Below are positions 6,489 to 53,304 of a stretch of DNA of 64,000 nucleotides, piece after piece (position 1 is the first letter of the stretch; each line of letters opens with the position of its first letter). This DNA comes from Halorubrum ruber. Lineage in GTDB: Archaea > Halobacteriota > Halobacteria > Halobacteriales > Haloferacaceae. The position numbers and the translations under genes are program-made. The DNA lies in assembly GCF_018228765.1 (NCBI RefSeq), contig NZ_CP073695.1, positions 124,001 through 188,000 on the forward strand, read 5' to 3'. A model generated the notes under the pieces. The model was given only the letters and a program-made list of their open reading frames with translations. It had not been told where the DNA came from and did not search any database.

Positions 6489-6726
6489 CCTCCAAAGCCC
6501 CAGCCGCGAGGCTGACGCACGCTCGCTGCGGTCCTCGTCACTCACTTCGTTCGTTCCTGCGGTCCTTACGTCGCCTGCGTCAGCCTCGCGGCTGCCCCTT
6601 TGAGTCCCACCCCGCCCCGCACAGCACCTCACGCCTCCCCAGCCTCGTCGGCCTCCCTACGGTCGGCCGACTCCCTCGCGCGTGCTGCTTCGCGGCCAAG
6701 GGCCGCTCGCAGGCACGCGCCACCGC
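6489..6726 (-). ncRNA. Structured RNA element, copy A
   Basis: Minus-strand copy of a four-member family. Helix 1 has GCGCGTG / CACGCGC, a bulged C, CTGC / GCAG, a tandem GA internal loop and the hairpin GCGGCC-CTT-GGCCGC. Helix 2 pairs plus-strand 6647-6653 with 6665-6671. Helix 3 is a perfect 19 bp stem (6501-6519 with 6576-6594) on a base of CTCAAAG / CTTTGGAG separated by a GGG/GGG loop. The linkers GAGGCTGGGGAGGCGTGAGG and GGGACTCAAAGGGGCAG are shared with the other copies. The open frames crossing it on both strands are spurious. Confidence 0.7.
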
Positions 6727-6733
6727 GTCAGTT

Positions 6734-6743
6734 CTTTATAAGT
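6734..6743 (-). promoter_or_regulatory. TATA box of RNA element copy A
   Basis: CTTATAAAGA on the minus strand lies just upstream of the conserved GCGGTGGCGCG start of the element. Confidence 0.5.
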
Positions 6744-6767
6744 ATTCGTCGAGGCGCGGTCAACTAC

Positions 6768-7607
6768 TTATAAGTCGCGATCGGGCGCGGGCGGCATCGC
6801 CCGCTTGTGGGCGCTGCGCTCGTAGAGGTCGACCACGCGGTCGACGGCTTCTGCCGGGACGTCGAGTTCGCGGACCGTCGCCGCGCGCGAGAGGCCGCCG
6901 TCGACGTGGACCGCGAGGATGGCGTCGACGGTGTCGTAGTCGAGCCCCATCTCCTCGGCGTCAGTCTGGCCCTCCCACATACCCGCCGTCGGCTCCTGCA
7001 TCACGAGGTCGCGGTCGACGCCGACGTGCGCGGCCAGCTGGCGGACCTGCTGTTTGTAGAGGTTCCCGATGGGGTTACAGTCGACCGCCTGGTCGCCGTA
7101 TTTCGTGTAGTAGCCGGTCATCGCCTCGGCGCGGTTTCCGGTGCCGAGGACGACCCGATTTTCGGCGTTGGCGACGAAGTAGTTCAGCACGGCGCGGGTG
7201 CGGACGTAGACGTTGCCCGCGGCCGTGCGGTCCTCCGCCGCCTCCGGGACGGCGTCGAAGAAGGTCTCCGCGATCGGCTGGATCTCGATCACGTCGTACT
7301 CGACCCCGAGGTCGTGAGCGACGCGCTCCGCGTCGCTCATCACGTCCGCGTCGTTCACGGCCGAGGGCATCGTGAGCCCGTGGAGGCCGTCCTCGCCGAG
7401 CGCCTCGACCGCGAGGTGCGCGGTGAGCGTCGAGTCGATACCACCCGAGAGGCCGAGGACAGCGCCCTCGGCGCCCGCGTCGTCGACGACGTCGCGGATG
7501 AACGAGACGATGCGCTCGCGGGTCGCTTCCAGCTCCTCCTCCGAGAGGCGGAGATCGAGCGGGGGGTCGTCCGACAGCAACACCGACTGCTCCGAGGTCT
7601 GACTCAT
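6768..7607 (-). CDS. nadE: NAD+ synthetase, ammonia-dependent
   Basis: The 279-residue protein is an N-type ATP pyrophosphatase that amidates nicotinate adenine dinucleotide to NAD+ in the cytoplasm. The PP-loop is LGLSGGIDSTLTAHLA near residue 53, and the NaAD/ATP-binding region contains GTGNRAEAMTGYYTKYGD and later NLYKQQVRQLA. It has no glutaminase (nitrilase) domain, so ammonia is the likely donor, as in most archaeal NadE. The stop codon TAA is part of an ACTTATAAGT word of the neighbouring repeat region. Start ATG 7607 gives the usual N-terminal length. Confidence 0.93.
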   Translation of the reverse strand: MSQTSEQSVLLSDDPPLDLRLSEEELEATRERIVSFIRDVVDDAGAEGAVLGLSGGIDSTLTAHLAVEALGEDGLHGLTMPSAVNDADVMSDAERVAHDLGVEYDVIEIQPIAETFFDAVPEAAEDRTAAGNVYVRTRAVLNYFVANAENRVVLGTGNRAEAMTGYYTKYGDQAVDCNPIGNLYKQQVRQLAAHVGVDRDLVMQEPTAGMWEGQTDAEEMGLDYDTVDAILAVHVDGGLSRAATVRELDVPAEAVDRVVDLYERSAHKRAMPPAPDRDL

Positions 7608-7676
7608 GAGCGAGTAGAGGTGCCGAGGCGACTAATACCTCCCCGTCGGCGCCGGGAACTGGACGCGCGTCGGGTT

Positions 7677-8339
7677 CTACAGCAGTCCTTCCTCTTCGGC
7701 CAACAGCAGCCCCTCCAGCGTCGCGTCGTTCGTCGGCGGCTCCCGGGCGATTTCGAGCGCCTCGTCGACCGGGACCGACCGCGGGGCGAGAAACTCGTTG
7801 CTGTCGTGGTCGACGTCGACCGGCTCTAACCCCTCCGCGAACACGTAGCCGCGCGTGTGACGCAACACGCCCGTCGAACACCACACCTCCTGGAGCAGCG
7901 ACGTCGACGAGGGCTCGAAGCCGGTCTCCTCGGCGAGCTCGCGCGCGCCCGCCTCGGTGTACGACTCGCCGGACTCGACGATTCCGGCGGGGAGTTCCAG
8001 TTGGGTGTTCCGCACGGTGGGCCGGTACTGCTCGACGAACAGCACCCGGTCGTCCGCGACCGCGACGATCACCGTCGCGGGCGACAGCTCCGCCCAGTAG
8101 TAGTTCTTCTCCGTCCCGTCGGGCTGCTCGACGCGGTCGTAGCCGCCGACGAACCACCCCTCGTCGTACTCGACGACGACCTCCTTCACCGGCCACTCGG
8201 GCTCGCCCGGCAGCGAGTGGTTGCGGCCGTCGGCGAACGCGGGGAGGTCGCGGAGGTCGGCCGCCGGGGCGTCGGGGTCGGGGGCGGCGGGGTCGTCGGA
8301 GGCGTCGCCCGCGTCGGAGTCAGCGTTCTCGCGCGTCAC
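7677..8339 (-). CDS. Nudix hydrolase, ADP-ribose pyrophosphatase type
   Basis: A 220-residue protein. The Nudix box lies at 119-141 (GIVESGE, then REL-EE-G) and matches GX5EX7REUXEEXGU fully. Upstream, VLFVEQYRPTVRNTQLELPAG is the signature of ADP-ribose/sugar-nucleotide pyrophosphatases, so hydrolysis of ADP-ribose or a similar dinucleotide is likely. The N-terminal 35 residues are a low-complexity Asp/Pro/Ala tail. GTG 8339 is chosen because it overlaps the stop of the upstream gene as GTGA; the longer frame to 8465 only adds antisense-like Arg/Pro sequence. It is co-transcribed with the small membrane protein upstream. Confidence 0.82.
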   Translation of the reverse strand: MTRENADSDAGDASDDPAAPDPDAPAADLRDLPAFADGRNHSLPGEPEWPVKEVVVEYDEGWFVGGYDRVEQPDGTEKNYYWAELSPATVIVAVADDRVLFVEQYRPTVRNTQLELPAGIVESGESYTEAGARELAEETGFEPSSTSLLQEVWCSTGVLRHTRGYVFAEGLEPVDVDHDSNEFLAPRSVPVDEALEIAREPPTNDATLEGLLLAEEEGLL

Positions 8340-8719
8340 GGGCGGACCACCTCCGCGTGGTACACCTGGCCGTCGCGGCGCACCCGCACGCCGGTCTCCG
8401 TCGAGGCGTTCGGCACCTGCCGGGTGAGCGCGTCCACCTCGTCGAACGGCGTGTGCGTGAACCACTCCTTCATCCCGTACGGACCGGTCTGGTACCCCGC
8501 CGACCGACCGTCGTCGCTCTCTATCGCGCCGATCAGGTACGGGTACCGCCTGTCGGAGACGTTGTTCACGTCGGCGGCGGTGCCGTTCGTCTCGATCGGT
8601 TCGACCGTGAGGTAGTAGGGATCGCCGCTCCCGAGGTAGCTGGGGAGGGCACCGAGCGCGAGCAGCGCGACGACGACCAGAGCGATGGCGATGAAGACGT
8701 TCCGGGTGACCCGGCGCAT
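8336..8719 (-). CDS. Conserved haloarchaeal membrane-anchored protein
   Basis: A 127-residue protein with one N-terminal membrane helix (about residues 8-25, IAIALVVVALLALGALPSYL) followed by an outside-facing soluble domain with GYQTGPYGMKEWFTHTPFDEV. I do not recognise a named family. Its stop overlaps the start of the Nudix gene by four bases, so the pair is an operon, conceivably linking a surface or membrane step with nucleotide-sugar turnover. That link is speculative. Confidence 0.6.
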   Translation of the reverse strand: MRRVTRNVFIAIALVVVALLALGALPSYLGSGDPYYLTVEPIETNGTAADVNNVSDRRYPYLIGAIESDDGRSAGYQTGPYGMKEWFTHTPFDEVDALTRQVPNASTETGVRVRRDGQVYHAEVVRP

Positions 8720-8813
8720 GGTCGCCGTAGGGGGCGGCGGGGAATACCGGTTTCGACCGACGAGATGCCGGTCGGCGAGGTGAGCGCCGAACCGGGCGCC
8801 GCGCGGCGACGCG

Positions 8814-8820
8814 TTTTATA
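8814..8820 (+). promoter_or_regulatory. TATA box of the 8843 gene
   Basis: TTTTATA centred about 26 bp before the ATG at 8843; consistent with a leaderless mRNA. Confidence 0.5.
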
Positions 8821-8842
8821 CCGCGGCGCCCCTGCCGACGGT

Positions 8843-9799
8843 ATGGAGTATCGGTTCGAGCTGGCGCTTTGCGCCGCGCTCGAATCCCCGGACCGAGTCG
8901 TCGCCCGCCAGCTCGGCGCGGGCGTCGAGACGCCGGGCACGCGGATCGTCGACGTCTGCCTGCTGTCGCCGGGCCCCGACTTCGACGACCGCGCCGCCGT
9001 CAGCGCCGAGCGGATCCCGGACCCCGCCATCGAGGCCGCGGTCGGCCCCGGCGAGGCCGTCCCCGTCCGCGACGCGTTCGACCTCCCGCCGGATCGGGCC
9101 GCCGCCGTCGTCGAGCGCGCGGTCGAGGTCGGCTACCTCGAACGCGAGCGGCGGAACGGGCGGCCGGTCGTGCGCGCGACCGCGCGCTACCCGGACGACT
9201 GGGTCGGGGAGCTCGTCGCCGTCGAGAACAAGCCCGACCTCGGGACGCCCGGCGACCTCGAGGCGCAGCTGCGCTACGACGCCGCGCTCGGCCTGTTCGA
9301 CGAGGTCGTCCTCGCGACCGCCTCCTACGTCACCCGCGCGCACCTCAACCGGATCCCCGACGCGGTCGGCGTCTGGCGGTTCGATCCGGAGACGGGGGAG
9401 CGCGAGGTCGTCCGCGAGCCGACGCCGCTCGACCCAGACGCGCCCGGCGTTGAGATCCGCGCGGAGCGTCCCTCCCGCACGGAGGTCGCCTTAGTCGACC
9501 CCGAGGCCAAGGCGCGCAAGCGGCGCCGGATCGCCGAGCGCGCGTACGGGAAGGGGTGGCGCCCCGACCCGCCGGCGTGCGCGCACGGCGAGGCGACCGC
9601 TGACGGCCGGCCGCGCTGCGCGCACTTCGACCGCGTGGTCGACCCCGGCCGCGAGTGCGGGAGCGGGTGTCCGGCCTTCGAGCCCGCCGACCCGCCGGCG
9701 GCGGACCGAGAGGGGCTTCGAGACGAGCGGACGGCGTGGGTCGCGGACCCCGACGGGGGCGGCCCGCGCCGCCAGTCCGGGCTCTCGCGGTACCTGTGA
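8843..9799 (+). CDS. DUF5787-like protein with nuclease-like core and cysteine cluster
   Basis: A 318-residue haloarchaeal protein. A helical N-terminal part with a winged-helix look (VVERAVEVGYLERERRNG, about 90-107) is followed by ELVAVENKPDLGTPGDLEAQ (123-142), where E128 and K130 fit the (D/E)xK half of a PD-(D/E)xK nuclease core, then a Rossmann-like strand EVVLATASYV. The C-terminus has a CxH...C...C cluster (CAHGEA, RCAHF, ECGSGCPAF) able to bind zinc or an Fe-S cluster. The DUF5787 name is from memory. A nuclease role is an inference. The stand-alone promoter suggests a monocistron. Confidence 0.6.
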   Translation: MEYRFELALCAALESPDRVVARQLGAGVETPGTRIVDVCLLSPGPDFDDRAAVSAERIPDPAIEAAVGPGEAVPVRDAFDLPPDRAAAVVERAVEVGYLERERRNGRPVVRATARYPDDWVGELVAVENKPDLGTPGDLEAQLRYDAALGLFDEVVLATASYVTRAHLNRIPDAVGVWRFDPETGEREVVREPTPLDPDAPGVEIRAERPSRTEVALVDPEAKARKRRRIAERAYGKGWRPDPPACAHGEATADGRPRCAHFDRVVDPGRECGSGCPAFEPADPPAADREGLRDERTAWVADPDGGGPRRQSGLSRYL

Positions 9800-9804
9800 G
9801 AACG

Positions 9805-9812
9805 CTTATACG
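9805..9812 (+). promoter_or_regulatory. TATA box of the CBS-domain gene
   Basis: CTTATACG centred about 27 bp before the ATG at 9835, giving a leaderless transcript. Confidence 0.5.
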
Positions 9813-9834
9813 GCGAGGGCGGGTGTTTCCGGAT

Positions 9835-10242: not shown

Positions 10243-10364
10243 CGCCGCCTCGGAGCTGTCGGCCGGCTCGGTGCGTCGAGGCGGTCGCATCCGAGGCGTC
10301 CGCGACGGCGACAAGTGCCGCCACTTCCTGTGTCCGTATTACCCCGGAGCGCGTACCGAGGTCC

Positions 10365-11970: not shown

Positions 11971-12012
11971 CGTTCCTTTACTCACCGAGCGAGCCGCTCG
12001 CACAGCCGCGGG

Positions 12013-12100: not shown

Positions 12101-12574
12101 TCAGAGGTTCTCCCGCTGGTACGCGCCGTCGTACGTCCCCTCGTGGTCGGCCTCGGCGAGGACGAGCTGCGCGATCCGCGCGCCCGGCTCGATCTCGATC
12201 GGGTGGCCGATGTCGAGTCGCCCCTCGCCGACCCCCTCGTAGCCGGCGTCCCACACCGCGGTGTCGAGGGTACAGGCGTTACGCAGCAGCGTCGAGCGCG
12301 GGAGGACGAACCCGATCCGCTCTTCCGGGATCCGCACCGGCTCGCCGTAGCGGACGACGTAGCTCCCGCGTTCGAGCCGGTAGCAGTCGCCACGGGGCTC
12401 CAGCTCCCGTCGCTCGGCCACGCGCTTTCCGTCGCGCCCGAGCCGGCCCGGTTCGGTCTGTGCGAACACCGCGTCGAGGGTGAGGTCGACGCCGTTCGGC
12501 TGTCGCTGCGCGTCGTCGAGGTCGGCGCCGGCCGCCTCCAGCGCCGCCGCGACCGCGGCTCCCGAGTCGAACAT
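12101..12574 (-). CDS. dut: dUTP diphosphatase / dCTP deaminase-family protein
   Basis: A 157-residue protein of the trimeric dUTPase/dCTP deaminase superfamily. Family motifs include NGVDLTLDAVF, the Ser-containing catalytic segment VLPRSTLLRNACTLDTAVWD, GYEGVGEG and the strand ARIAQLVLAEAD. It is shorter than bona fide dCTP deaminase (about 195 aa) and resembles haloarchaeal deoxyuridine 5'-triphosphate nucleotidohydrolase, which keeps uracil out of DNA. Whether it also deaminates dCTP, as the Methanocaldococcus enzyme does, cannot be told. ATG 12574 has a TTTTG promoter-like word about 30 bp upstream; a TTG at 12601 is less likely. Confidence 0.78.
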   Translation of the reverse strand: MFDSGAAVAAALEAAGADLDDAQRQPNGVDLTLDAVFAQTEPGRLGRDGKRVAERRELEPRGDCYRLERGSYVVRYGEPVRIPEERIGFVLPRSTLLRNACTLDTAVWDAGYEGVGEGRLDIGHPIEIEPGARIAQLVLAEADHEGTYDGAYQRENL

Positions 12575-12816
12575 GCGCGTCCGGAACCGCGGGCGAGGCA
12601 AAACGGTGTCGCCCGCGGCGCGCGACGAGGAGGGACGAATCAGCCGTTTTTGCCGCGACCGTTGAAACCCTCGATTTCGTCCGTTTCAGGCGATTAATGA
12701 CCTAAAATACACTGGACGGCTACGTATTTCACGGTGCGTGGTATCACGCGGAGATCACAGCGAGAGTTGCCGCATCGAGGGATCTAACACGGTCGATCTT
12801 CGGGAAACTCGCGGGT

Positions 12817-12824: not shown

Positions 12825-12849
12825 CACGGGACGGCCATCTTGGCGTGAT

Positions 12850-15041: not shown

Positions 15042-15317
15042 GCGGTGGCGCGCGCCTCCGAGTGGCCGCCGAAGGCGGCCGCGAGGAGCGCGTGCGAGGG
15101 AGTCGGGCGCAACGAGGGCGACCGAAGGGAGCCCGAAGGCGCGCCCGACGAGGCTGGGGAGGCGTGAGGTGCGGGTGCTGTGCGGTGCGGGGCGGGACTC
15201 AAAGGGGCAGTCGCGAGGGCGAAGCACGCCGTAGCAAGCACCGCAGCGAGGGAGCGAAAGCGACCGAGTGAGGAGCGCAGCAAGGCGCGCGAGCCGTCGC
15301 GACTGGGGCTTTAGAGG
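15042..15317 (+). ncRNA. Structured RNA element, copy B
   Basis: Helix 1 has GCGCGCG / CGCGTGC with one G.T, a bulged C, CTCC / GGAG, tandem GA and the hairpin GGCCGCC-GAA-GGCGGCC (15064-15080). Helix 2 is GTCGGGCGC with GCGCCCGAC (15102-15110 with 15141-15149). Helix 3 is shorter here, CAGTCGCGA with TCGCGACTG (15208-15216 with 15297-15305), on the same CTCAAAG / CTTTAGAG base with the GGG/GGG loop. The linkers match copies A, C and D. The Pro/Ser/Arg-rich frames crossing it are spurious. Confidence 0.7.
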
Positions 15318-27790: not shown

Positions 27791-28250
27791 TTTTCGACGA
27801 ACAACACGGCGAGCGTAGCGAGCCGTTCGTCGAAAACGGTCGCAAAAGGGATTTGAATCTGAGGACGAGCGAACGCAGTGAGCGAAGTCCTCCGGGTTCA
27901 AATCCCGCTCCGGGCGTCTTTCGCTGCCGCAAAACGAACGAGGAGCGGCAGCGACGAGTGAGTACTGCGGCAGCGAAGCGTCGAGGGATTTGAACCCTAT
28001 CAGTCGCGCGCAGCGAACGGAGTGAGCGAGCACGTCTGATTTCGGTTCAAATCCCGCTCCGGGCGTTCTGTCGACGCCGACTACGAGCGAGGAGCGGTAG
28101 CGACGAGCGAGTCCGGCGTCGACGAATACAGACGAAGGGATTTGAACCAGAGAGTGAAGCGAGCGAAGCGAGCGGAACGACCGAGGTTCAAATCCCGCTC
28201 CGGGCGTCTTTCGCTGCCGCAAAACGAACGAGGAGCGGTAGCGACGAGCG
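27791..28250 (+). repeat. Hairpin array ending in tRNA-Asp 3' tails
   Basis: Three units (27791-27916, 27917-28065, 28066-28206) plus a partial fourth. Each unit has a first hairpin (for example CGCTGCCGC with GCGGCAGCG, or GTCGACGCCG with CGGCGTCGAC), then GGGATTTGAA, a variable stem-loop, then TTCAAATCCC within a 22-25 bp copy of the tRNA-Asp 3' end (through GCTCCGGGCG). Units 2 and 4 begin with the same 20 bases. No convincing protein is encoded. Confidence 0.85.
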
Positions 28251-31650: not shown

Positions 31651-31883
31651 CTCACTTTGCGGCTGCCTCGCTTCGCTCGGCAGCCGCTGCGTTCGGTCCT
31701 GACTTGCCTCACGCTCGCTTCGCTCGCGTGAGACTCCGTCAGGACGTTTCTTTTAACACAACGCTGCGAGCGTAGCGAGCAGCACGTGCTGAAAGAAACT
31801 CCGCGGAGATTTGAGCAGGAAAGTCGCAGCGGCCGAGCGAAGCGAGGCCGACCGTCTTTCCGAGTTCAAATCTCCGTCAGGAC
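31651..31883 (+). repeat. Hairpin array ending in tRNA-Arg 3' tails
   Basis: Two units. 31651-31746 has hairpins CGGCTGCC / GGCAGCCG and TCACGC / GCGTGA and ends in the last 13 bases of tRNA-Arg (CTCCGTCAGGACG). 31747-31883 has a CGCTGC / GCAGC hairpin, then GAGATTTGA, a stem-loop, and GAGTTCAAATCTCC leading into the same tail (23 bp copied). The design is the same as after tRNA-Asp, but with this tRNA's own sequence. Confidence 0.82.
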
Positions 31884-31959
31884 GTTCTTTAGTCATAATC
31901 TCACGACGATTGCGAGCAGTGTGTCGGTCCTACGCGACACGTTAGGTGATGTTGGTTGT

Positions 31960-32220
31960 GCGGTGGCGCGCGCCTCCGAGCGGCCGTTTTTAAACGGCCG
32001 CGAGGAGCGCGTGCGAGGGAGTCGGTGGTTCGGAGCAACGCGGAGGACCACCGACGAGGCTGGGGAGGTGTGAGGTGCTGTGCGGAGCGGTGCGGGGTGG
32101 GACTCAAAGGGGCAGCCGGGAGGTGGGCGCAGGCGACGTAAGCACTGGCGGGAGTGAGCGAAGCGAACGACCGAAGCGCGCAACGAGCGTGCGCCCACCT
32201 CCCGGCTGGGGCTTTGGCGG
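31960..32220 (+). ncRNA. Structured RNA element, copy C
   Basis: Helix 1 has GCGCGCG / CGCGTGC, a bulged C, CTCC / GGAG, tandem GA and the hairpin CGGCCGTTT-TT-AAACGGCCG (31981-32000). Helix 2 is GTCGGTGGT with ACCACCGAC (32021-32029 with 32047-32055). Helix 3 is a perfect 19 bp stem (32113-32131 with 32190-32208) on the conserved base. There is no clear TATA box just upstream, unlike copies A, B and D, so this copy may be silent or read through from tRNA-Arg. Confidence 0.68.
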
Positions 32221-32425
32221 TGTCCGCCGCCGATCCGTAGTTGATTATTTATACGCGAGTGACTGATGATTTGGCTGTGTAGGCCGTCGATTTGTGGTCA
32301 ACTATTTATAAGTGTCCGGCTGGAGGTTAGGCGGCCGTCATCGCCGCTCCTCGGTCCGTTATTTATAAGCGAGGTGTCGGAGATTGAGCGGAAGTCACCG
32401 AACCGATATCAACTATTTATAAATG
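32221..32425 (+). repeat. Degenerate 57-57-54 bp TATA modules after RNA element copy C
   Basis: TATTTATA words occur at 32246, 32303, 32360 and 32414, that is spacings of 57, 57 and 54 bp. Between them lie partly conserved blocks (a CTG-GG-G-TT-GGCGG-like start and CCGAT before the TATA). No gene is seen here. Confidence 0.65.
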
Positions 32426-32491
32426 ACCGACCGCCAGTGCGACGCACCGTACCCTCGCTTAGTAGCCGACCCGAACCACCCACTCTACGTC

Positions 32492-43011: not shown

Positions 43012-44529
43012 ATGAGCCAAGACACAAACGACACAATCGGACTCTCGCGGCGCAAGGTGCTCGCGGGCCTCGGCGCCGTCGGCGTCGCGTCCGCGGGCGC
43101 GGGACTCGGTACTACGGCGTACTTCAACGACACCGAGTCGTTCACTAACAACACGCTCACCGCGGGCGAGCTCGACCTGAAGCTGGATTACAAGTCGACG
43201 TACCTCGGCGGTCCCGGCCGTTTGGACGACATTCGGGCGATGGGGTACGCCGGCGGCGACGAAGAGTTCTTAGCGCAGGATCTCGGCGACGGACAGTACC
43301 TGATCGGCCAAGCGCCCAGCCCCGGGGACATGCAAGAATGGGAAAACTACGTGCAGGACGACGAGATGTTCGACTTCTGTTCGCCCGAGGCGGACGAGTT
43401 CCTCGTCAACGGCGACGGGATCCCGATCTTCACGCTCGACGACGTGAAGCCCGGCGACTCCGGCGAGGTCACGATCAGCATTCACATCTGTGACAACCCC
43501 GCGTACCTCTACCTCGCGGGCGAGCTGACCGAGAACGCGGAGAACGGTCAGTCCGAGCCCGAACTGGAAGACGAGGGCGAAGACACCGACGGAGTCGGCG
43601 AACTCGCCGACGCCATCGAGGTCTGCGTCTGGTACGACGAGGACTGCGACAACGTGTACGAGCCCACCGGCACGGGCCAGCAGCAGGAGCTGGAGGTCGC
43701 CTTAGTCAGCGACGTTTCCGGCTCGATGGGCGGATCCGCGCTCTCCTCGCTGAAGACGGCCGCGACCAGCTTCGTCGGGAACCTCTCGTCGCCCGACGAG
43801 GCCGCGGCGATCTCGTTCAATTCCGGCGCGTTGACCGACCAGGAGCTGACGACCAACTACCAGGCTGTTCAGAACGCGATCAACAACTACACCGCGGGCG
43901 GCGGCACCTCGATCGCCGCCGGTATCATCGAGGGCGAAGACGAGCTCCTCAACGGCACCATCGCCACGCCGGGCGCGTCGAAGGTGATGATCCTGCTGAG
44001 CGACGGGCAGTCTAACGAGACCGCCGCGACCGACGCCGCGACCGACGCCAAAAACAACGGGATCCGCATCTTCACCATCGCGCTCGGGAACGCCGACACC
44101 GGTCTGTTGGAGAGCGTCGCCAGCTCTTCCGACGACGCCTTCGTCGCGCCCGACCCGTCCGACCTCGACACCGTCTACGCCGAGATCGCGCAGATCGTCC
44201 TCGCGGGCGAACAGAAGATCCTCTCCGGCACGATGAGCGAGGTCTTCGCGGAACTGGCCGACGGCGAGGCGCTCGACGGCAACCGCCAGGAGGAGGGTCG
44301 GCAGCCGTACCCCGGCGCGACCACGCAGTGCATCGGCTTCGAGTGGACGCTCCCGGCGGAGGTCGGCAACGAGATCCAGACCGACTCCGTGAGCTTCGAT
44401 CTGGCCGTCTACGCCGAGCAGTCGCGGCACAACGACAACCCGCAGGTGGCGTTCAACGGGACCGACGTGAACAGCACCAGCCCCGGTCCCGCCCCCAACG
44501 GCACCGGCAACGTGAGCGATCCGAACTAG
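43012..44529 (+). CDS. TasA-like surface protein with inserted von Willebrand A domain, 1
   Basis: A 505-residue secreted protein. The signal IGLSRRKVLAGLGAVGVASA followed by TTAYFNDTESFTNNTLTAGE (about 9-53) is the SipW-cognate type seen in TasA/camelysin proteins. The TasA-like domain runs to about 215 (LDDVKPGDSGEVTISIHICDNPAYLYL), is interrupted by a vWA domain (about 226-400, metal site D234-x-S236-x-S238 in VSDVSGSMGG) and resumes at 405-475 (MSEVFAELADGEALDGNR, FEWTLPAEVGNEIQTDS, VYAEQSRHND). The tail is Asn/Ser/Thr-rich with glycosylation sequons. It likely assembles into surface or matrix fibres after processing by the peptidase at 50076. Confidence 0.75.
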   Translation: MSQDTNDTIGLSRRKVLAGLGAVGVASAGAGLGTTAYFNDTESFTNNTLTAGELDLKLDYKSTYLGGPGRLDDIRAMGYAGGDEEFLAQDLGDGQYLIGQAPSPGDMQEWENYVQDDEMFDFCSPEADEFLVNGDGIPIFTLDDVKPGDSGEVTISIHICDNPAYLYLAGELTENAENGQSEPELEDEGEDTDGVGELADAIEVCVWYDEDCDNVYEPTGTGQQQELEVALVSDVSGSMGGSALSSLKTAATSFVGNLSSPDEAAAISFNSGALTDQELTTNYQAVQNAINNYTAGGGTSIAAGIIEGEDELLNGTIATPGASKVMILLSDGQSNETAATDAATDAKNNGIRIFTIALGNADTGLLESVASSSDDAFVAPDPSDLDTVYAEIAQIVLAGEQKILSGTMSEVFAELADGEALDGNRQEEGRQPYPGATTQCIGFEWTLPAEVGNEIQTDSVSFDLAVYAEQSRHNDNPQVAFNGTDVNSTSPGPAPNGTGNVSDPN

Positions 44530-44649
44530 CTCCTCGGAGCGACGCGGCCCCGGACGACACCTTCGTCCGGTTCCCGGCTCGGCGCCTTCGGGCGGCCGAC
44601 GCGGCGGTTCGCGACCGCCGCCGGGAGTTCCCTTCGGGGATGATACACA

Positions 44650-45975
44650 ATGAACGACGACAAAATCGGACTATCGCGGCGCAAGATGCTGGTCGGACTC
44701 GGTGCGGTCGGCGTGGCCTCCGCGGGCGCGGGCCTCGGCACCACGGCGTACTTCAACGACACGGAGACGTTCGAGAACAACACCCTGACTGCGGGCTCGC
44801 TCGACTTGTTCGTCAACTACGACGCCTCGTACGACAGCGACGGGACGGTAGTGAACCAGGCCGAAACGGCGGCCGGTGAGCAGGACGGCACCCCCGCGGG
44901 AATGTTCTACGACCTTGAAGACGTGAAGCCCGGCGACTCCGGCGAGGTGAAGTTCTGCTTCGAGATCGTCGACAACCCCTCGTACATGTGGGCGTGCGGT
45001 GACCTCTCGCAGGCGGAGAACGGCATCAACGAACCCGAGTCGGCCGTCGACGACACGCCCGACCTCGGCGAGCTCGGCGACTCGATCGTTGCGAGTCTCG
45101 CCTACTGTGACGAGGACGGCGAACCGCTCGCAGACGGAGAGATCGTCTCCGGCTCGCTCGTCGACGTCATCGCGGCGATCTCCAGCGGCGCGGCCCTCGA
45201 CGGCGACGGGATGGCCGGCCTCGTTCCCGGCGAGCAGGCGGAGTACGCCGACGTGGTCGAGCCCGACGAGGGCGAGGCGTTCATCACCGGCCCGTGCGTG
45301 TGCCTCTCGTGGGAGATCCCGACGACGGTCGGCAACGAGATCCAGTCGGACTCGCTGACGATGAACTTCGAGTTCCACGCGGTCCAGTCGCGCCACAACG
45401 ACGGCACGGCGAACCCGTGTGAACCCTCTATCACGACTACGACCGGCGAGGGCTTCGCCAAGCAGGAGGAGTTCGACACCGAACAGGAGACCTCCTTCGC
45501 CCGCGGCCGCTTCGGTGGTCAGAACACGTGGGAGGTCGCGGTCGGCCCCGACGTCGGCAGCGCCGACACGGCCAACTACGTCTGGACGCCCGGGAACCCC
45601 GTCCCGTTCAGCTACACCTACGACGGCAGCGGTAACGCCTCGTTCACCCTTGACGGCGTGAACGTGGCTAGCACGATTCCCGCCCCCAGCGGGAAGCTCG
45701 GCATCACGACGAAGGCCGACGAGGCGACCGTCTCCGTGACGGACCTCGCACTGGACCTGGACGGCACCCCCGTGTCGCTCAGCGGTCCCGACGCGATCTC
45801 CGCGTCGAATGACGACGACGGTTCCGACCGCGATGTCACCTACCTCGTGTTCGACACCGACGCCGCGGACGTCGCGAACGCGTTCACCATCAGCGGCAAC
45901 GTGGAGGTCAACCTTCAGGGAGACTACGACATGACCGCAGAGGAGGGCGTCGCCTTCGACATCAGCGTCGAATAA
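44650..45975 (+). CDS. TasA-like surface protein with extra C-terminal beta domain
   Basis: 441 residues with the same signal (IGLSRRKMLVGLGAVGVASA, then YFNDTETFENNTLTAGS). The TasA-like domain is uninterrupted here (to about 255; LEDVKPGDSGEVKFCFEIVD, SWEIPTTVGNEIQSDS, FHAVQSRHND), which shows where the vWA domain was inserted in its paralogues. A second, beta-rich domain follows (about 265-441, SFARGRFGGQNTWEVAVGPD); it may be the type NCBI calls choice-of-anchor W, but I am not sure. The leader before the ATG has a GGGAGTTCCC-like hairpin shared with the next paralogue. Confidence 0.72.
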   Translation: MNDDKIGLSRRKMLVGLGAVGVASAGAGLGTTAYFNDTETFENNTLTAGSLDLFVNYDASYDSDGTVVNQAETAAGEQDGTPAGMFYDLEDVKPGDSGEVKFCFEIVDNPSYMWACGDLSQAENGINEPESAVDDTPDLGELGDSIVASLAYCDEDGEPLADGEIVSGSLVDVIAAISSGAALDGDGMAGLVPGEQAEYADVVEPDEGEAFITGPCVCLSWEIPTTVGNEIQSDSLTMNFEFHAVQSRHNDGTANPCEPSITTTTGEGFAKQEEFDTEQETSFARGRFGGQNTWEVAVGPDVGSADTANYVWTPGNPVPFSYTYDGSGNASFTLDGVNVASTIPAPSGKLGITTKADEATVSVTDLALDLDGTPVSLSGPDAISASNDDDGSDRDVTYLVFDTDAADVANAFTISGNVEVNLQGDYDMTAEEGVAFDISVE

Positions 45976-46123
45976 GCGTCGCCGAACGCGCAACGTCCGC
46001 CCGATCGCGGGCGGGACTGCGCGCTCGCGACGAATTCCGACCACCACCCATTCCGGACCCGCGCGGGCGGCCGGGACGACGGTTCGACTCCGTCGGTGGG
46101 ACTCCCCTCGGGGATTCACAATC

Positions 46124-47827
46124 ATGACAGACAACAAGAAATTCGACACGATCGGACTGTCGCGGCGCAAGATGCTGGCGGGCCTCGGCGCGGTCGGCGT
46201 GGCCTCCGCGGGCGCCGGCCTCGGCACCACGGCGTACTTCAACGACACCGAGTCGTTCGACGGGAACACCCTCACCGCGGGCCAGCTCGACCTGCTCGTC
46301 GACTGGCAGCAGACGTACGACTTCGGCGAGGGGCACCAGTTCGTCAGCGCGCACCCGGACCACGACGGCGACGGCGAGCAGTCCGTCGAGATCGACGGCG
46401 AGGTGTTCAGCTACAGCGACTTCCCGGACGAGGACGACACGGACAGCAACGGGGCGAACCTCCCGGTGCTGACCTGCGACAACATCCCGCCGCTCTCGGA
46501 GGCGGACTTCGGCACGGACCCCGTCACGGGCGAGGAGATGGAGACGCTGGTCCAGCTCACCGACGTGAAGCCCGGCGACTCCGGCGAGATCACCTTCTCG
46601 CTCCACCTCTGTGACAACCCCGGTTACATCTGGATGCAGGCGGGCAACGTCAGCGAGGACGGCGGCGCCGGCACCGAACCGGAAATGCTCGTCGACCCCG
46701 ATAACCTCGGCGACCTCGGCGACGCGATCCAGGCGACGCTCTGGTACGATGAGGACTGCGACAACGTGTACGACGGCGCGGAGCCGGTCGACATCATGCT
46801 GACGCTCGACTTCTCGGGCTCGATGCTGTACGACGGGTTCGGGGGTTTGGTCAACACGGACGACATCGCGATCAACGGGACCACCTACAATGAGACGACG
46901 AAGATCGACCTCGTCGAGCTCGGCACCCGGCAGTTCATCGACTTCCTCCAGAACGCGAACGCTGACGTTGAGGTCGGCGTCGCGTACTTCGACGGCGAGA
47001 AGTCCGGCGACAACGAACCCCGGACCGGGATCTTACAGCCCCTGACCGACGATCTGTCCGTGGTCGACGGCGCGCTGTCGGGCCTGCGGCAGAAGCTCGC
47101 GAACGTCGTGAGCGGCGGCGCCGGCTCGACCCCGTTCGACGGCGACGGTGACCCGAACCCGTTCGCGGGCGGCGGTATCGCGACGGGCACGTACATCGGC
47201 GAGGGCGTCGACGACGCGCAGAGCGAGCTCGCGAACGGGCGCCCCGGCGTGGCGAAGCAGAATATCGTCCTCTCGGACGGCGAGTCGTTCAACGGGACGG
47301 GCTCGACGACGTTCTCTTCGCCCACCGCGGCGGCCGACGACGCCCGCGCGGCGTCGCCCAGCCCCGCGACCGACGTCTACACGATCAACGTCAACGGCAG
47401 CGCCAGCACCCTGCTGGCGATGGCCGGCCCCGCCGGCGGGGCGGGCGGCGATCCGCTGTTCTTCAACGACCTCGACGACCCGCTGAACATCCCGACGGTG
47501 TTCGGTAACCTCGCGGCGCAGGCCACGCAGGAGAAGGTCATCATGGAGGACACGCTCGCGAGCGTCCTCGCCGAGCTCGCCGACGGGGACGGGATCCCGC
47601 TCGACGGCAACCGTGCGACGCTGTACGACGAGCTCACGGACCCGGCCGACGACCCGGACCGCGACGCGTTCCGCGGCGACGGCGTGATGCACTGCGTCGC
47701 GCTCGAGTGGGAGCTGCCCCTCGAAGTGGGCAACGAGATCCAGGGCGACACGCTCGCCTTCGATCTGGGCTTCTACACCGAGCAGGCGCGTCACAACGAC
47801 GGCGCCGGGCCGTCGCAGGCGGCCTGA
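46124..47827 (+). CDS. TasA-like surface protein with inserted von Willebrand A domain, 2
   Basis: 567 residues. The signal is IGLSRRKMLAGLGAVGVASA, then AYFNDTESFDGNTLTAG. The first TasA-like half runs to about 218 (LTDVKPGDSGEITFSLHLCD, LWYDEDCDNVY). The vWA insert (about 222-480) has metal-site residues D229-x-S231-x-S233 in LDFSGSM and a large loop region. The second TasA half has LASVLAELADGDG, EWELPLEVGNEIQGDT and YTEQARHNDG. It is a paralogue of the 43012 gene with a longer vWA domain. It is expected at the cell surface, as a fibre subunit or metal-dependent adhesin. Confidence 0.75.
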   Translation: MTDNKKFDTIGLSRRKMLAGLGAVGVASAGAGLGTTAYFNDTESFDGNTLTAGQLDLLVDWQQTYDFGEGHQFVSAHPDHDGDGEQSVEIDGEVFSYSDFPDEDDTDSNGANLPVLTCDNIPPLSEADFGTDPVTGEEMETLVQLTDVKPGDSGEITFSLHLCDNPGYIWMQAGNVSEDGGAGTEPEMLVDPDNLGDLGDAIQATLWYDEDCDNVYDGAEPVDIMLTLDFSGSMLYDGFGGLVNTDDIAINGTTYNETTKIDLVELGTRQFIDFLQNANADVEVGVAYFDGEKSGDNEPRTGILQPLTDDLSVVDGALSGLRQKLANVVSGGAGSTPFDGDGDPNPFAGGGIATGTYIGEGVDDAQSELANGRPGVAKQNIVLSDGESFNGTGSTTFSSPTAAADDARAASPSPATDVYTINVNGSASTLLAMAGPAGGAGGDPLFFNDLDDPLNIPTVFGNLAAQATQEKVIMEDTLASVLAELADGDGIPLDGNRATLYDELTDPADDPDRDAFRGDGVMHCVALEWELPLEVGNEIQGDTLAFDLGFYTEQARHNDGAGPSQAA

Positions 47828-50076: not shown

Positions 50077-51116
50077 TGACAACTATACTCACATCACCAC
50101 GGACGAAGCGCGCGGCGAACGTACTCGGGATCGTCCTGCTGATCGCGCTCGTCGCGCCGTTCGCGGCCTACGCGGCCCCCGAGGTCGTCGGCGCCGACGA
50201 GAGCTTCGTCGTGCTCACGGCGAGCATGACGCCCGCCATCGCGCCGGGCGACGTGGTTATCGTCGCCGACCGCGACCCGGCCGCGATCGCCGAGGGGGAC
50301 GTGATCACGTTCATGCGGGGCACCAGCGAGGTGCCGGTGACGCACCGCGTGATCGACGTTGTCGACGAGGGCGGGGCGCTCGCCTTCGAGACGATGGGCG
50401 ACGCCAACGAGGGGCCGGACCCCGGGCTCGTCTCGGCCGGGAGCCTCGTCGGTGTCGTGACGTTGACGATCCCGTACATCGGGTACGTGATCCAGTTCGC
50501 GGGCACCCGGGTCGGGTTCGTGGCGCTGGTGCTGCTCCCGTTCGGCCTGCTCGCGGTCACCGAGGTCTGGTCGATCGTCCGTGGCCGCGACGGCGCGGAG
50601 TCGCCGGCCACCGCGACCGCCGATCCGGACGGAGAGCCGGTCGGCGGAGGGGACGCCGAGACGGCGGCGTTCGAGTTCGCAGCCGAGCCCGATCCCACCC
50701 CGACGGCCGCAGCGACCGCCGCGAGCGGTTCCGGTGGCGTCTCGGTCGACGCGGTCGGCGGCGCGGCGGCGGTACTCGCCGTCTTCGCTCCGTACGCGGC
50801 GTACGTCGCGTTCGAGCTCCGGAGCGCCGCCGCGATCGCGGTTGCTGTGGCGACCGCGACGCTCCTGTTCGGCGCGCTCGCGATGTGGGTGCCGGCGAGC
50901 GGCGTGCTCGACCGGAGCGTTCAGAGCGCCGCGTCGGAGTCGGACGGCGACGCGTCGGAAACGGCCGCCGACGGCGGGGTCTCCGAGAGCGACGCGGATT
51001 CCGACGAGACGGACTCGGCGGCGGTCGCGACTGGCGAAGAGCGCGTGGAACCGGACGAGTCGGCACCGGCACGGACGCCGACAGCACGCCCCGACGCCGC
51101 CGGAGAGGTGGACTGA
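50076..51116 (+). CDS. Signal peptidase I, SipW/Sec11 type
   Basis: 346 residues. An N-terminal membrane helix (about 15-32) precedes the catalytic Ser in VVLTASMTPAI (S50) and His in PVTHRV (H90). GDANEGPD (109-115) supplies the acid. Ser-His rather than Ser-Lys is characteristic of archaeal/eukaryotic Sec11 and Bacillus SipW. A second helix lies at about 146-166, and the C-terminal part has two more helices and a long acidic tail. Its position inside the cluster, overlapping genes on both sides, makes it the dedicated processing enzyme for the TasA-like precursors. Confidence 0.83.
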   Translation: MTTILTSPRTKRAANVLGIVLLIALVAPFAAYAAPEVVGADESFVVLTASMTPAIAPGDVVIVADRDPAAIAEGDVITFMRGTSEVPVTHRVIDVVDEGGALAFETMGDANEGPDPGLVSAGSLVGVVTLTIPYIGYVIQFAGTRVGFVALVLLPFGLLAVTEVWSIVRGRDGAESPATATADPDGEPVGGGDAETAAFEFAAEPDPTPTAAATAASGSGGVSVDAVGGAAAVLAVFAPYAAYVAFELRSAAAIAVAVATATLLFGALAMWVPASGVLDRSVQSAASESDGDASETAADGGVSESDADSDETDSAAVATGEERVEPDESAPARTPTARPDAAGEVD

Positions 51117-51934
51117 TGCCCGCGAACCGCGGGCTCGTCGCGCTCGTCGCGCTGGCCGTGTTGGTGTGGAGCGTCGCGTTCGCCGGCGGGGCCACGGTGG
51201 CGGTCCTCTCGGCGAGCGTCGACGTGACGACGACGTTCGAGACGCCGGAGGAACTGAGCGAGGTCAACGAGTCGAGCGGAAGCGGATTCACCGTGGCGAC
51301 CGTGCCGGTCGAGAACGGGACGACCGCCGTGGGAGGGAACGGGACGTCGGCGGCGGCGAACGGCACGGAGACCGCCGGGAACACCACGGTCCCGACCACT
51401 GAACAGAACACCACGGTCCCGCCCACTGAACAGAACGCCACGGCCCCACCCACTGAACAGAACACCACGGTCCCGCCGACGGACCAAAACGACTCGGCGA
51501 CGACGGCGAACGAAACTAAACCGGACGAAAACGACTCGGCGACGACAACGAACGAAACCGAGACGGACGAAAACGACTCGGCGACGACAACGAACGAAAC
51601 CGAGACGGACGAAAACAACTCGGCGCCAAAGACGAACGAAACCGAGACGGACCAAAACGACTCGGCGCCAAAGACGAACGAAACCGAGACGGACCAAAAC
51701 GACTCGGCGCCAAAGACGAACGAAACCGAGACGGACCAAAACGACTCGGCGCCGGCCGATCCGACGGGAGACCAGTCGAGCCGGCCGAGTGAGGAGACGG
51801 TGACGAACGAGTCGGCTCCGGCGGGGAACGCGACCGTCGAGGGGTCGACCACGCCCGACGCGAACGACGTCGATGCGGTCGCGGTTCGTCACCCCACGGA
51901 TCCGTCGCGGTCCGGCCAGGGAGCGCGAACGTGA
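51116..51934 (+). CDS. Secreted threonine/asparagine-rich repeat protein
   Basis: 272 residues. An N-terminal hydrophobic signal (LVALVALAVLVWSVAFAGG) is followed by a short domain (SASVDVTTTFETPEELSEVN) and a long low-complexity region: first TTVPPTEQN-type repeats, then six 14-residue units like NDSAPKTNETETDQ encoded by exact 42 bp repeats. Many NxT/NxS sequons suggest heavy N-glycosylation. It looks like a stalk or mucin-like spacer at the cell surface. The ATG overlaps the peptidase stop (TGATG), so it belongs to the same operon. Confidence 0.68.
   Translation: MPANRGLVALVALAVLVWSVAFAGGATVAVLSASVDVTTTFETPEELSEVNESSGSGFTVATVPVENGTTAVGGNGTSAAANGTETAGNTTVPTTEQNTTVPPTEQNATAPPTEQNTTVPPTDQNDSATTANETKPDENDSATTTNETETDENDSATTTNETETDENNSAPKTNETETDQNDSAPKTNETETDQNDSAPKTNETETDQNDSAPADPTGDQSSRPSEETVTNESAPAGNATVEGSTTPDANDVDAVAVRHPTDPSRSGQGART
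51486..51755 (+). repeat. 42 bp tandem coding repeats
   Basis: Six full units plus a partial one, starting AAAACGACTCGGCG. Two sub-types (GCGACGACAAC and GCGCCAAAGAC cores) are grouped, showing recent unit duplication. Copy number is expected to vary between strains. Confidence 0.85.
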
Positions 51935-52089
51935 CCGTACCGAGCCGGCAGCGGGAGCGTCTCGGGAAGGGCGACGCACGGTCCGACGGGCGCTGCTCCG
52001 GCCCCGGGGCGAAACTCACCGCGCTGTTGCTGCTCGTCGCGTTGCTTCTCCTCGTGTTCCTCGCCAGCGTCGTTCGGATGTTCGGGTGA
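51931..52089 (+). CDS. Small single-helix membrane protein
   Basis: 52 residues from GTG 51931. The start overlaps the previous stop as GTGA. The N-terminus is basic and polar (MTVPSRQRERLGKGDARSDG, one Cys), followed by one strong membrane helix (about 28-47, LTALLLLVALLLLVFLASVV) and a short end RMFG. The coupling to the surface-protein operon and the clean helix support a real gene. It may be an accessory to the signal peptidase or an anchor of the fibre; no family is recognised. Confidence 0.6.
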   Translation: MTVPSRQRERLGKGDARSDGRCSGPGAKLTALLLLVALLLLVFLASVVRMFG

Positions 52090-52180
52090 ACTCGCAAACG
52101 GCGCGGCCGGGAGGCGGTTCTCAGCCGGTGGCCGCGCCCGCCGGAGTTATGGGCGGTACCGGCGTACGATCAGCCGACGA

Positions 52181-52978
52181 ATGATTGCCCTCGACGCCTA
52201 CGCGTTCGTCTTCGTCGCCGGGCTGATCACGGCGCTGGCGACCGGGATCGGTGCGCTCCCCTTCTTTTTCTTCGAGACGATCAGCGACCGCGGGAACGTG
52301 GCGCTGTGGGGGTTCGCGTCGGGGATCATGCTCTCCGCGTCGCTGTTCGGACTGGTCCAAGAGGGGCTCGCGGAGGGGACGCCAGTCGAGATCGGGGTCG
52401 GGATGCTCGCGGGCGTCGCGCTCGTCGTCCTCGCGCACGAGGTGCTGATGGACGCCGAGATCGATCCCAGAGAGTACGAGGAGGCCGACTTCAAGAAGCT
52501 GATTCTGATCCTCGGCGTGCTGACGGTCCACAGCTTCCCGGAGGGGATCGCGGTCGGCGTCTCCTTCGCGGACCTCGGGCTGTCGGGCGGCACCGCGCTG
52601 TTCGGCTTCACGGTCCCGCTGCTCGCCGTGTTCATGACGGTCGCCATCTCGATCCACAACGTCCCCGAGGGGACGGCCATCTCGATCCCGCTGCGGGCGA
52701 TGGGCGTCTCGAAGTGGAAGATGGTGTGGTGGTCGATCTTCTCCAGCCTCCCGCAGCCGATCGGCGCCGTGATCGCCTTCGCGTTCGTGCGGTACGCCCG
52801 CGATTTCCTCCCGTACGGCTTCGGCTTCGCGGCGGGCGCGATGATCTACCTCGTCCTCTCGGAGTTCATCCCCGAGGCGCTCGAAACGGGCGCCGACCTC
52901 CCGCACGGCGGCAAGCGGGTCCTCGTCGGCGGGATCGCGCTTGGCGTCGCGCTGATGATCCCGCTCGCGTATTTATAA
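52181..52978 (+). CDS. ZIP family metal transporter
   Basis: 265 residues with about eight membrane helices. Helix IV/V metal-site motifs are LTVHSFPEGIAVGVSF and ISIHNVPEGTAISIPL, the His-Pro-Glu-Gly signatures of ZIP (SLC39/GufA-like) transporters for zinc or related divalent metals. The loop between helices III and IV is acidic (DAEIDPREYEEAD). The last codons and stop (TAT TTA TAA) form a TATTTATAA word that belongs to the RNA-element repeat region downstream. Confidence 0.85.
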   Translation: MIALDAYAFVFVAGLITALATGIGALPFFFFETISDRGNVALWGFASGIMLSASLFGLVQEGLAEGTPVEIGVGMLAGVALVVLAHEVLMDAEIDPREYEEADFKKLILILGVLTVHSFPEGIAVGVSFADLGLSGGTALFGFTVPLLAVFMTVAISIHNVPEGTAISIPLRAMGVSKWKMVWWSIFSSLPQPIGAVIAFAFVRYARDFLPYGFGFAAGAMIYLVLSEFIPEALETGADLPHGGKRVLVGGIALGVALMIPLAYL

Positions 52979-53035
52979 GCGGCCGAGGGGGCGACGACGC
53001 GGTAGTTTAAATGAGCGTCACCGGCTGCGACGATC

Positions 53036-53045
53036 ATTTATAAAT
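53036..53045 (+). promoter_or_regulatory. TATA box of RNA element copy D
   Basis: ATTTATAAAT just before GCGGTGGCGCG at 53053. Further AT words occur upstream at 52970 and 53004. Confidence 0.5.
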
Positions 53046-53052
53046 GAACGGT

Positions 53053-53304
53053 GCGGTGGCGCGTGCCGACGAGCGCCCGGTAGGGCGCGAGTCGCACGCG
53101 CGAGGGAGTCAGTCGCCGGAGCGAAGCGGAGGCGACTGACGAGGCTGGGGAGGCGTGAGGCGCTGTGCGGTTGCGGGCGGGTGGGACTCAAAGGGGCAGC
53201 CGTGAGGCGGGCGCAGGCGACGTAAGCACCGCAAGGAGCGAGCAGCGCGAGCGACTGAGGCGCGCAGCAAGCGTGCGCCCGCCTCACGGCTGGGGCTTTG
53301 GAGG
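53053..53304 (+). ncRNA. Structured RNA element, copy D
   Basis: Helix 1 has GCGCGTG / CACGCGC, a bulged C, CGAC / GTCG, a symmetric GA/GA loop and the hairpin GCGCCC-GGTA-GGGCGC (53073-53088). Helix 2 is GTCAGTCGCC with GGCGACTGAC (53108-53117 with 53131-53140). Helix 3 is a perfect 19 bp stem (53197-53215 with 53274-53292) on the conserved CTCAAAG / CTTTGGAG base. Every helix differs in sequence from the other copies but keeps pairing. Confidence 0.72.

Follow-up and report, generated by a model that had tools for sequence, protein, structure and literature searches.

Folded intergenic elements of a large family in Halorubrum ruber and other haloarchaea

The 64,000-nucleotide stretch of the Halorubrum ruber genome analysed here (the window) contains four copies of a folded element whose large family lies between the genes of haloarchaea, with as many as some 190 members in one genome. 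The fold is conserved and shows very strong covariation. It comprises a 5' module (helices H1 and H2 and a linker) and a 3' module, in which helix H3 is closed by an outer helix, SAAAG-GGG-CNG/CNG-GGG-CUUUS. No coding capacity was seen in the element, and its location is intergenic. A first-pass annotation had proposed the four copies (c1-c4, listed below), and these were confirmed by sequence, together with their common linkers and the arms quoted for the three helices (alignment A1). R1, a covariance model of the H3 domain trained on 33 family segments (18 from Halorubrum ruber, where matches are partly by construction; c4 is included, c1-c3 are absent), detected the four copies in the window at E values of 1e-20 to 1e-23, the next-best match having E=0.29.

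6378..6449, minus: two more tail-unit starts of c1, with CTGGGGCTTTGGAGG at 6435-6449 and 6378-6392 (pattern search); TATTTATA is present in the c1 tail units
6489..6726, minus: c1 core, comprising H1, H2, linker, H3 and CTGGGGCTTTGGAGG (sequence, alignment A1)
6489-6608, minus: R1 match in c1 (E 1.7e-22)
6735..6742, minus: upstream box CTTATAAA of c1, 9-16 bp 5' of the core
15042..15317, plus: c2 core, with H3 in a less regular variant (sequence, A1)
15194-15317, plus: R1 match in c2 (E 9.7e-21)
31960..32220, plus: c3 core, without a TATA-like box directly 5' (sequence, A1)
32099-32220, plus: R1 match in c3 (E 2.7e-23)
32206..32439, plus: c3 tail array of four diverged units, with TATTTATA in each (sequence)
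53041..53049, plus: upstream ATTTATAAA-type box of c4 (sequence, flank comparison)
53053..53304, plus: c4 core (sequence, A1)
53059..53101, plus: c4 helix 1, GCGCGTGC/GCACGCGC, with an inner GAC/GTC step, GAG/CGA and an apical hairpin (fold, H1 consensus)
53108..53140, plus: c4 helix 2, GTCAGTCGCC/GGCGACTGAC (fold, re-pairing control)
53141..53182, plus: c4 linker GAGGCTGGGGAGGCGTGAGG and a G-rich stretch (A1); this region holds the cross-family motif GGYTGGGGAGGBGYG
53183..53304, plus: c4 H3 domain, comprising GGGACTCAAAGGGGCAG, helix 3 with an inner tandem-G.A rod, CTGGGGCTTTGGAGG and the closing helix (A2 structure, pair counts)
53183-53304, plus: R1 match in c4, a member of the training set (E 3.4e-23)
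53290..53403, plus: two 57 bp tail units of c4, starting at 53290 and 53347

Family size and distribution

Initially described from four copies, the family has 186 members in the 3.02-Mb Halorubrum ruber genome alone, counted as matches to the 15-nt core GACTCAAAGGGGCAG (<=1 mismatch); the reversed-pattern control gave 0. The core pattern is present in 47 of 51 congeners, and the 52 Halorubrum genomes range from 0 (four genomes) to 186 copies, with high numbers in most. The covariance-model search of haloarchaeal genomes suggested with the initial description found R1 matches in 231 of 292, the other 61 having none at the stricter filters used, with <=12 candidates per genome scored. Some R1-positive genomes have a single detected copy. 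The element is also matched by seven plasmid records and by no phage record, which led to the rejection of a phage origin.

The initial failure to place the element in a known RNA family was upheld: Rfam matches in the window were tRNAs only, and six loci gave none at E<=1. A conserved, covarying fold is shared with the ornate and multicopy structured RNAs in Rfam, but none of those families was matched. No earlier description of the element was recognised in the accessible parts of the open-licence PMC literature, including PMC12306157 and PMC2841640, where a search for motif strings gave one unrelated plant paper. Conserved haloarchaeal intergenic RNAs without function are reported in the available text of PMC7002113.

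Fold, tail units and TATA boxes

The compensating changes first noted among the four copies recur in the wider alignment A2, where both-sided changes occur in 27 of 37 pairs, with a score of 0.508 vs 0.147 for shuffled alignments. None of 500 shuffles reached any covariation measure, although related sequences in the alignment inflate this test; the refuting outcome proposed at first, a wider alignment lacking covariation, did not occur. Since RNAalifold misdrew H2 in alignment A3, this helix was tested by re-pairing: its arms pair over 5.06 bp, compared with 2.10 bp after random re-pairing. The closing helix around helix 3 pairs CAAAG-GGG-CAG with CTG-GGG-CTTTG and changes across genera, for instance from CAAAG/CTTTG to GAAAG/CTTTC; shuffling inside one genome is no explanation for such cross-genus changes. 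Unpaired motifs are invariant across genera, and internal loops, the tandem G.A rod and the linkers are conserved as well.

Downstream of the core, CTGGGGCTTT recurs with a usual period of exactly 57 bp. The tail unit, usually 57 bp long, has the closing helix's 3' strand at its start and is repeated up to 7 times; this repeat and the closing helix are additions to the initial description. Halovirus HF2 carries intergenic promoter repeats of 56-58 bp according to the available text of PMC8707807. The tail unit resembles them in its length near 57 bp, TATA box and Halorubrum context, whereas the HF2 motifs quoted there, CTTTAAGT and CGTCTNNTAGAG, are absent from it; identity with the HF2 repeats was rejected because of this difference.

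The TATA boxes reported upstream of three copies are indeed present, as TTATAA about 10-16 bp 5' of the core in three of the four window copies, but the idea of an RNA driven by the adjacent box did not hold. The same TTATAA box also ends tail units 3' of the core, and no consistent box was seen in those relatives outside Halorubrum that were inspected by eye. At the usual haloarchaeal TATA-to-start distance, the RNA would begin within helix 1. The boxes are poorly spaced as an element promoter, a role rejected for this spacing and for their occurrence at tail-unit ends. For haloarchaea, a TATA box at -26 is given in the available text of PMC8707807.

Fixed loci and stem exchange

Halorubrum ruber was compared with genome G152, in which the flanks are 91-93% identical, over a stretch of 448 kb carrying 35 copies, 3 of them beyond the comparable part. 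Place and orientation are shared by 26 of 32 comparable copies, and four copies were counted only in G152. Two of the six unshared loci (48630 and 231994) still have remnants in G152, so that presence is conserved better than 26/32; the unshared slots show different genes, remnants or an IS-linked change. Neither these six slots nor the locus of c4 yielded a clean insertion whose junctions were exact. An internal deletion between H1 and H3 is seen in G152.

Stems at shared loci are nearly as different as those of paralogues (shared locus/paralogue: H1.82/.75, H2.716/.652, H3.793/.771), as compared for the copies caught by patterns only (H1 13, H2 25 and H3 16 of 26). In 23 of 26 cases the best paralogue is more alike than the orthologue, and the stems assort independently between copies (H1-H2 r=0.013, H2-H3 r=-0.030). 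The 54-copy comparison leaves out 76947 and 417561 (longer H3) and 929911 (short flank), and several of its 5' anchors are misplaced. Interiors of H3 are inverted in 3 of 235 distinct ones, with 15 ambiguous, and in one more (L098) by eye.

Many of the between-copy differences are, to judge from sequence comparison, wholesale stem swaps, which qualifies their initial reading as compensating changes. Haloarchaea are polyploid and undergo gene conversion. The pattern points to ectopic gene conversion, but replacement of entire elements or recurrent rearrangement at a locus could also have a part in it.

Gene context, mobility and nature of the element

We give an even chance to the reading that the family is a dispersed, modular element without autonomy, of which one strand folds, probably as RNA, and whose copies are passed on at their loci while ectopic gene conversion reshuffles their modules. 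The sense strand would fold probably inside read-through transcripts near gene 3' ends, and copies may have spread with the help in trans of a presumed enzyme. Once placed, they would stay put, recombination through the invariant linkers would swap whole stems between loci, and selection for the fold would purge unpaired recombinants.

This reading is favoured by the high copy number with a zero control, the occurrence in 231 genomes, the covariation and the H2 re-pairing result, and also by the shared loci with their dissimilar, independently assorting stems, G.T over A.C, the preference for convergent gene gaps over divergent ones, the inverted H3 pairs and the full unit with an inverted H3 beside it. 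G.T exceeds A.C on the sense strand in clean helices, but unevenly (H1 28 to 22; whole H3 aligned without structure 67 to 153; counted by pair, only 12 to 9). This unevenness counts against the modular-element reading, as do the lack of a clean insertion junction and of a mobiliser, none having been found among the families looked for (Y1_Tnp and RVT_1, 52 genomes). Among the three initial guesses (a regulatory RNA, the RNA part of a mobile or defence system, or a structured non-autonomous transposon), the last fits best with the non-coding, intergenic, 0-186-copy element and its inverted H3 pairs elsewhere, and the earlier interpretation is partly supported; no obvious linked gene pointing to a defence role was seen.

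Rather doubtful, on present evidence, is a multicopy host RNA family, in which the structured RNA, free-standing or as a 3'-UTR domain, would bind a conserved haloarchaeal protein and regulate neighbours or act in trans, dispersal being a by-product. The RNA-grade fold with unpaired motifs invariant across genera, the wide distribution including single-copy genomes and the stable loci agree with it, as does the upstream gene, which in 24 of 35 cases is read in the direction of the element (home-made gene caller). Copy numbers that vary from 0 to 186, the inconsistent promoter and the 61 genomes without an R1 match argue against such a host function.

A REP-like family of DNA palindromes is unlikely; its hairpins, as cruciforms or single strands of DNA, would serve a HUH-type enzyme or a host protein, and correction of the palindrome and rearrangement of the hairpin would keep the arms perfect. 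It would account for the H3 inversions, the H1-H3 deletion in G152 and the convergent gaps, but internal loops, the tandem G.A rod and linkers exceed a palindrome's needs, and the G.T excess also speaks against it, although single-stranded DNA would allow this too. The number of copies does not follow the number of Y1_Tnp genes (Spearman 0.04, p 0.78, 52 genomes): Y1_Tnp is absent from 11 of the 52 Halorubrum genomes, 10 of which carry 8-100 copies, and the genus shows no link between the element and Y1 transposases. As generally outlined, REP/BIME/REPIN sequences are bacterial, high-copy extragenic hairpins of 20-40 nt, singlets and inverted doublets, with a preference for gene 3' ends, a GTAG/CGTC-type tetranucleotide at the hairpin foot and an associated TnpA-REP (RAYT). 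The haloarchaeal element is similar in copy number, arrangement and 3'-end bias, but its H3 unit by itself measures about 120 nt and contains internal loops, and it adds a 5' module and tails. Without a Y1 link, REP/RAYT identity was lowered.

More improbable still is a classical MITE moved by a DDE transposase, in which H3 would be a long terminal inverted repeat, the middle would consist of H1-H2 or just a short spacer, and Halorubrum would have lost the left repeat: in other genera H3 often forms inverted (head-to-head) pairs, 11 of 12 with 27-35 nt spacers and one with 90 (by eye; G349, G271, G172, G202, G230), wider in G255, and in L371 an inverted H3 lies left of a full H1-H2-H3 unit, but the four window copies have no such pair or left H3, no target duplication was seen, the c4 locus and the six slots not shared with G152 showing no clean junction, and no transposase with matching ends was found in an unsystematic look. 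Haloquadratum walsbyi PATE, SMR and MITE, defined in the available text of PMC3119063 by terminal inverted repeats or by palindromes near the ends like those of IS605, are likewise transposase-free haloarchaeal repeats, some with palindromes; the present element is set apart from them, by description rather than by sequence, by its covarying fold and by IS605 ends not being found.

Retro-mobilisation (SINE-like, DGR, retron or group II intron) is unsupported, RVT_1 being found in 0 of 52 Halorubrum genomes while the control matched in 3 of 14. An IS605/TnpB guide RNA was also considered and set aside; no tnpB is annotated in the five plasmid neighbourhoods inspected, whose annotation table is incomplete.

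More tentatively than the modular-element reading itself, a class-wide archaeal RNA element may exist as a recombining population within one genome, with about 180 fixed loci, invariant contact motifs and freely assorting, always-paired stems; one conserved protein might bind it at many gene 3' ends, and the closing-helix strands of the tails might serve as alternative partners. If true, a class-wide archaeal structured element is missing from Rfam, its copies making up ~1.5% of the chromosome (186 copies, each of about 250 nt, in 3.02 Mb). With hundreds of reassorted, paired stems per genome, pairing rules and unpaired contacts would be directly readable. The tail arrays would offer a handle on hairpin-linked tandem duplication, and fixed loci with free module exchange a rare one on ectopic gene conversion in archaea.

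Four intergenic copies of one structured element

The four copies of a structured RNA-like family claimed by the first-pass annotation were all found, in sequence and alignment, in place and as described:

6489-6726, minus strand: copy c1
15042-15317, plus strand: copy c2
31960-32220, plus strand: copy c3
53053-53304, plus strand: copy c4

On the sense strand, each copy comprises, in order, GCGGTGGCGC, helix 1, GCGAGGGA, helix 2, GAGGCTGGGGAGGYGTGAGG, a G-rich stretch, GGGACTCAAAGGGGCAG, helix 3 and CTGGGGCTTTRGMGG. A search of the 64-kb window with R1, a covariance model of the helix 3 domain trained on 33 family segments that included only c4 of the four, retrieved all four copies; the next-best matches had E=0.29 and 0.83. 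All four are intergenic. According to our own gene calls, some of them supported by Pfam, both neighbours of c1, c2 and c4 are directed at the element, while of the two neighbours of c3 the downstream gene alone faces it; a tRNA-Arg lies upstream of c3.

Several other features of the window were recorded. The 3' part of a tRNA (GTTCAAATCCC or similar) reappears 3' of both tRNA-Asp genes and of tRNA-Arg (27800-28230 and about 31790-31890), three times after tRNA-Asp, in hairpins with its own reverse complement around tandem-GA stems. A tRNA-Trp was predicted by ARAGORN at 12505-12600, without an Rfam listing at gathering score. Tandem repeats of 27 and 42 nt within an open frame, together with a longer coding-like stretch present in three diverged copies, occur at 51352-51771 and 43016-47800.

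Fold, covariation and folding strand

The RNAalifold structure of 33 aligned sequences, 28 from Halorubrum and five from other genera, comprises 37 pairs, 27 of them changed on both sides. Pair counts over these sequences gave 98.1% paired cells (78.4% in shuffled alignments), 214 double-change cells (53.5) and a covariation score of 0.508 (0.147), and none of 500 shuffles reached any of the five measures. Sliding the fold by one base reduces pairing to 30-37%. The closing helix, CAAAG/CTTTG in Halorubrum, becomes GAAAG/CTTTC in the five sequences from other genera, and the inner part of the helix 3 fold consists of 2-bp steps alternating with tandem G.A. The outer runs of helix 2 average 5.06 pairs, versus 2.10 with arms randomly re-paired (maximum 2.41 in 500), with 56 of 167 distinct stems scoring 0, at least some of them through a one-base boundary shift. 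Several pairs of the helix 1 consensus carry changes on both sides.

A 55-nt double-hairpin insert (GTTCACGAGAGC..GCTCTCGTGAGCCAATCAGAACGC..GCGTTCTGATGAC) occupies a constant position within helix 3, between GGC and GACGY. It was seen near 417.5 kb of the own genome, near B-coordinates 78220, 253066 and 274.9 kb of the syntenic relative G152, and at loci L361 and L094; five of six double hairpins in the stretches of these two genomes are no more than 260 bp away from the core of an element. The helix 3 interior is flipped between its own arms in three of 235 distinct interiors (L157, L237 and L263), with 15 unclear; L098 also has an inverted interior, judged by eye.

In the 13 outer base pairs of helix 3 (87 arm pairs) there are 25 G.T pairs against 6 A.C mismatches; the ratio is 14 to 0 in helix 2 and 28 to 22 in helix 1. 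Alignment of the whole of helix 3 without structure, by which pairs are forced across internal loops, gives 67 to 153; over the 36 consensus pairs of 229 segments the ratio is 184 to 36. Seventy representatives gave 57 to 20 (p 3e-5, cells not being independent), and counting by pair gave 12 to 9 (p 0.66). These counts moderately support the sense strand as the folding one, and do not tell RNA from single-stranded DNA.

Distribution, separable modules and tails

In the 3.02-Mb, single-contig genome, the conserved 15-nt core matches 87 times in forward and 99 times in reverse orientation, and the reversed control never matches. Of 51 other genus genomes, 47 carry the core (controls 0-2 per genome) and four (G129, G138, G145 and G153) lack it; over all 52, copies range from 0 to 186 (median 57.5). 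These differing copy numbers argue for spread or loss. Among the matches listed, numbering at least 80, the named records belong to Halorubrum species, Haloparvum sedimenti and one uncultured archaeon, and plasmid records carrying the core to Halobaculum (3), Natrinema (2), Halorussus and Halorubrum salinarum. R1 matched the helix 3 domain in 231 of the 292 haloarchaeal genomes searched, representing 63 of 77 genera, and a deeper search of 28 genomes picked for already having matches yielded 1 to 111 per genome. By eye, the helix 3 sequences at 22 loci outside Halorubrum share GGGTGGGACTGAAAGGGGC...ACGYAAGCACYGCA...GAGGAGCGCAGCGAG...GGGGCTTTC. In G243, with one R1 match, and G295, the element (L332, L335) lies between the same two genes, one possibly encoding a tRNA-splicing endonuclease; by eye, elements at L330, L358 and L359 (families f3 and f4) end next to apparently the same flanking gene.

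The 5' module (helix 1, helix 2 and linker), sought as GGYTGGGGAGGBGYG, has matches in 115 of the 292 genomes, from 31 of the 77 genera. Most Halorubrum genomes have about 10-180 matches, G062 has 101, six f6 genomes 29-53 and three f8 genomes 30-35 (controls 0-4); many others have only 1-2, close to control level. No helix 3 follows the 5' module within 300 nt at the six f6 loci inspected, while it does follow at f3 loci L358 and L359, so the 5' module is separable from the 3' module. In four of the five f6 loci L349-L353, a different, conserved-looking 3' part with AGTAGCTAGCT follows. Helix 3 often occurs as a head-to-head pair in G349, G271, G172, G202 and G230 (among the matches listed).

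The Halorubrum tail unit, CTGGGGCTTTGGAGGTGTTCGCCGCCGATCC...TATTTATAARCGAGCGR, is repeated up to seven times, usually with a period of exactly 57 bp and a few steps of 54, 56 or 63 bp; its start (<=2 mismatches) has 360 matches in the own genome and 7 in the control. The box that precedes the core is similar to the unit end, so many Halorubrum copies look flanked by short direct repeats. In G349/G271 and Haloparvum, helix 3 precedes tails of other lengths beginning with the same helix strand (by eye). Sequences ending in GGCTCTGTTGAAA/TTTCAACAGAGCC, perhaps an insertion sequence, break into or adjoin some tails (near 64.1 and 378.9 kb of the own genome and 67.4 kb of the G152 stretch).

Siting, proposed stem exchange and nature of the element

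Within 448 kb of the own genome, an element sits between 13 of the 68 pairs of convergent genes, 19 of the 237 co-directional ones and 3 of the 68 divergent ones (convergent versus divergent, p 0.014), and the upstream gene points to it in 24 of 35 cases (p 0.04). G152 shows the same trend (9/62, 18/228 and 2/63; p 0.03), most of its copies being the same loci. This siting fits gene 3'-end placement or promoter avoidance.

In the matching 400 kb of G152, 26 of the 32 copies that could be compared recur in unchanged orientation, with mean flank identities of 93.3% and 90.6%. Stem conservation does not match flank conservation: identities between orthologues and paralogues are 0.82 and 0.75 for helix 1 (n=13), 0.716 and 0.652 for helix 2 (n=25), 0.793 and 0.771 for helix 3 (n=16), and 0.883 and 0.872 for the linker (n=16). 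Identical or near-identical modules are slightly commoner in orthologues (helix 2 identical in 12% versus 2.4%), and the memory of place is therefore weak, not nil. Similarity in one helix does not predict that in the next (helix 1 versus 2, r=0.013; helix 2 versus 3, r=-0.030). Between the two genomes, the c4 locus shows a single base difference in helix 1 and an entirely different helix 2. Swapping of whole stems through the invariant linkers, a process inferred to be gene conversion, accounts for this pattern.

A search for the c4 locus in 52 genomes returned 30 loci, 13 of which, including our own, hold the core (2-mismatch motif) in constant orientation. Among 16 inspected, L104 has a decayed copy missed by that motif, and the convergent gap in G128 and G115 is just 25 and 19 nt. 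Within one locus the tail array is uniform, and arrays differ among species (six units in G152, five in G154).

No clean insertion was found among the six slots unshared with G152: 61735 and 99978 hold another small gene, 48630 and 231994 remnants, and 64017 and 378411 show rearrangement. The genus genomes searched yielded no reverse transcriptase domain, and Y1 transposase is unlinked to the element in the genus. The tests made assign it to no known family, and its mechanism is only partly supported. Overall, the element is real, class-wide and structured, with no description found in the literature searched; its behaviour is that of a dispersed extragenic palindrome or MITE that has an RNA-grade fold.
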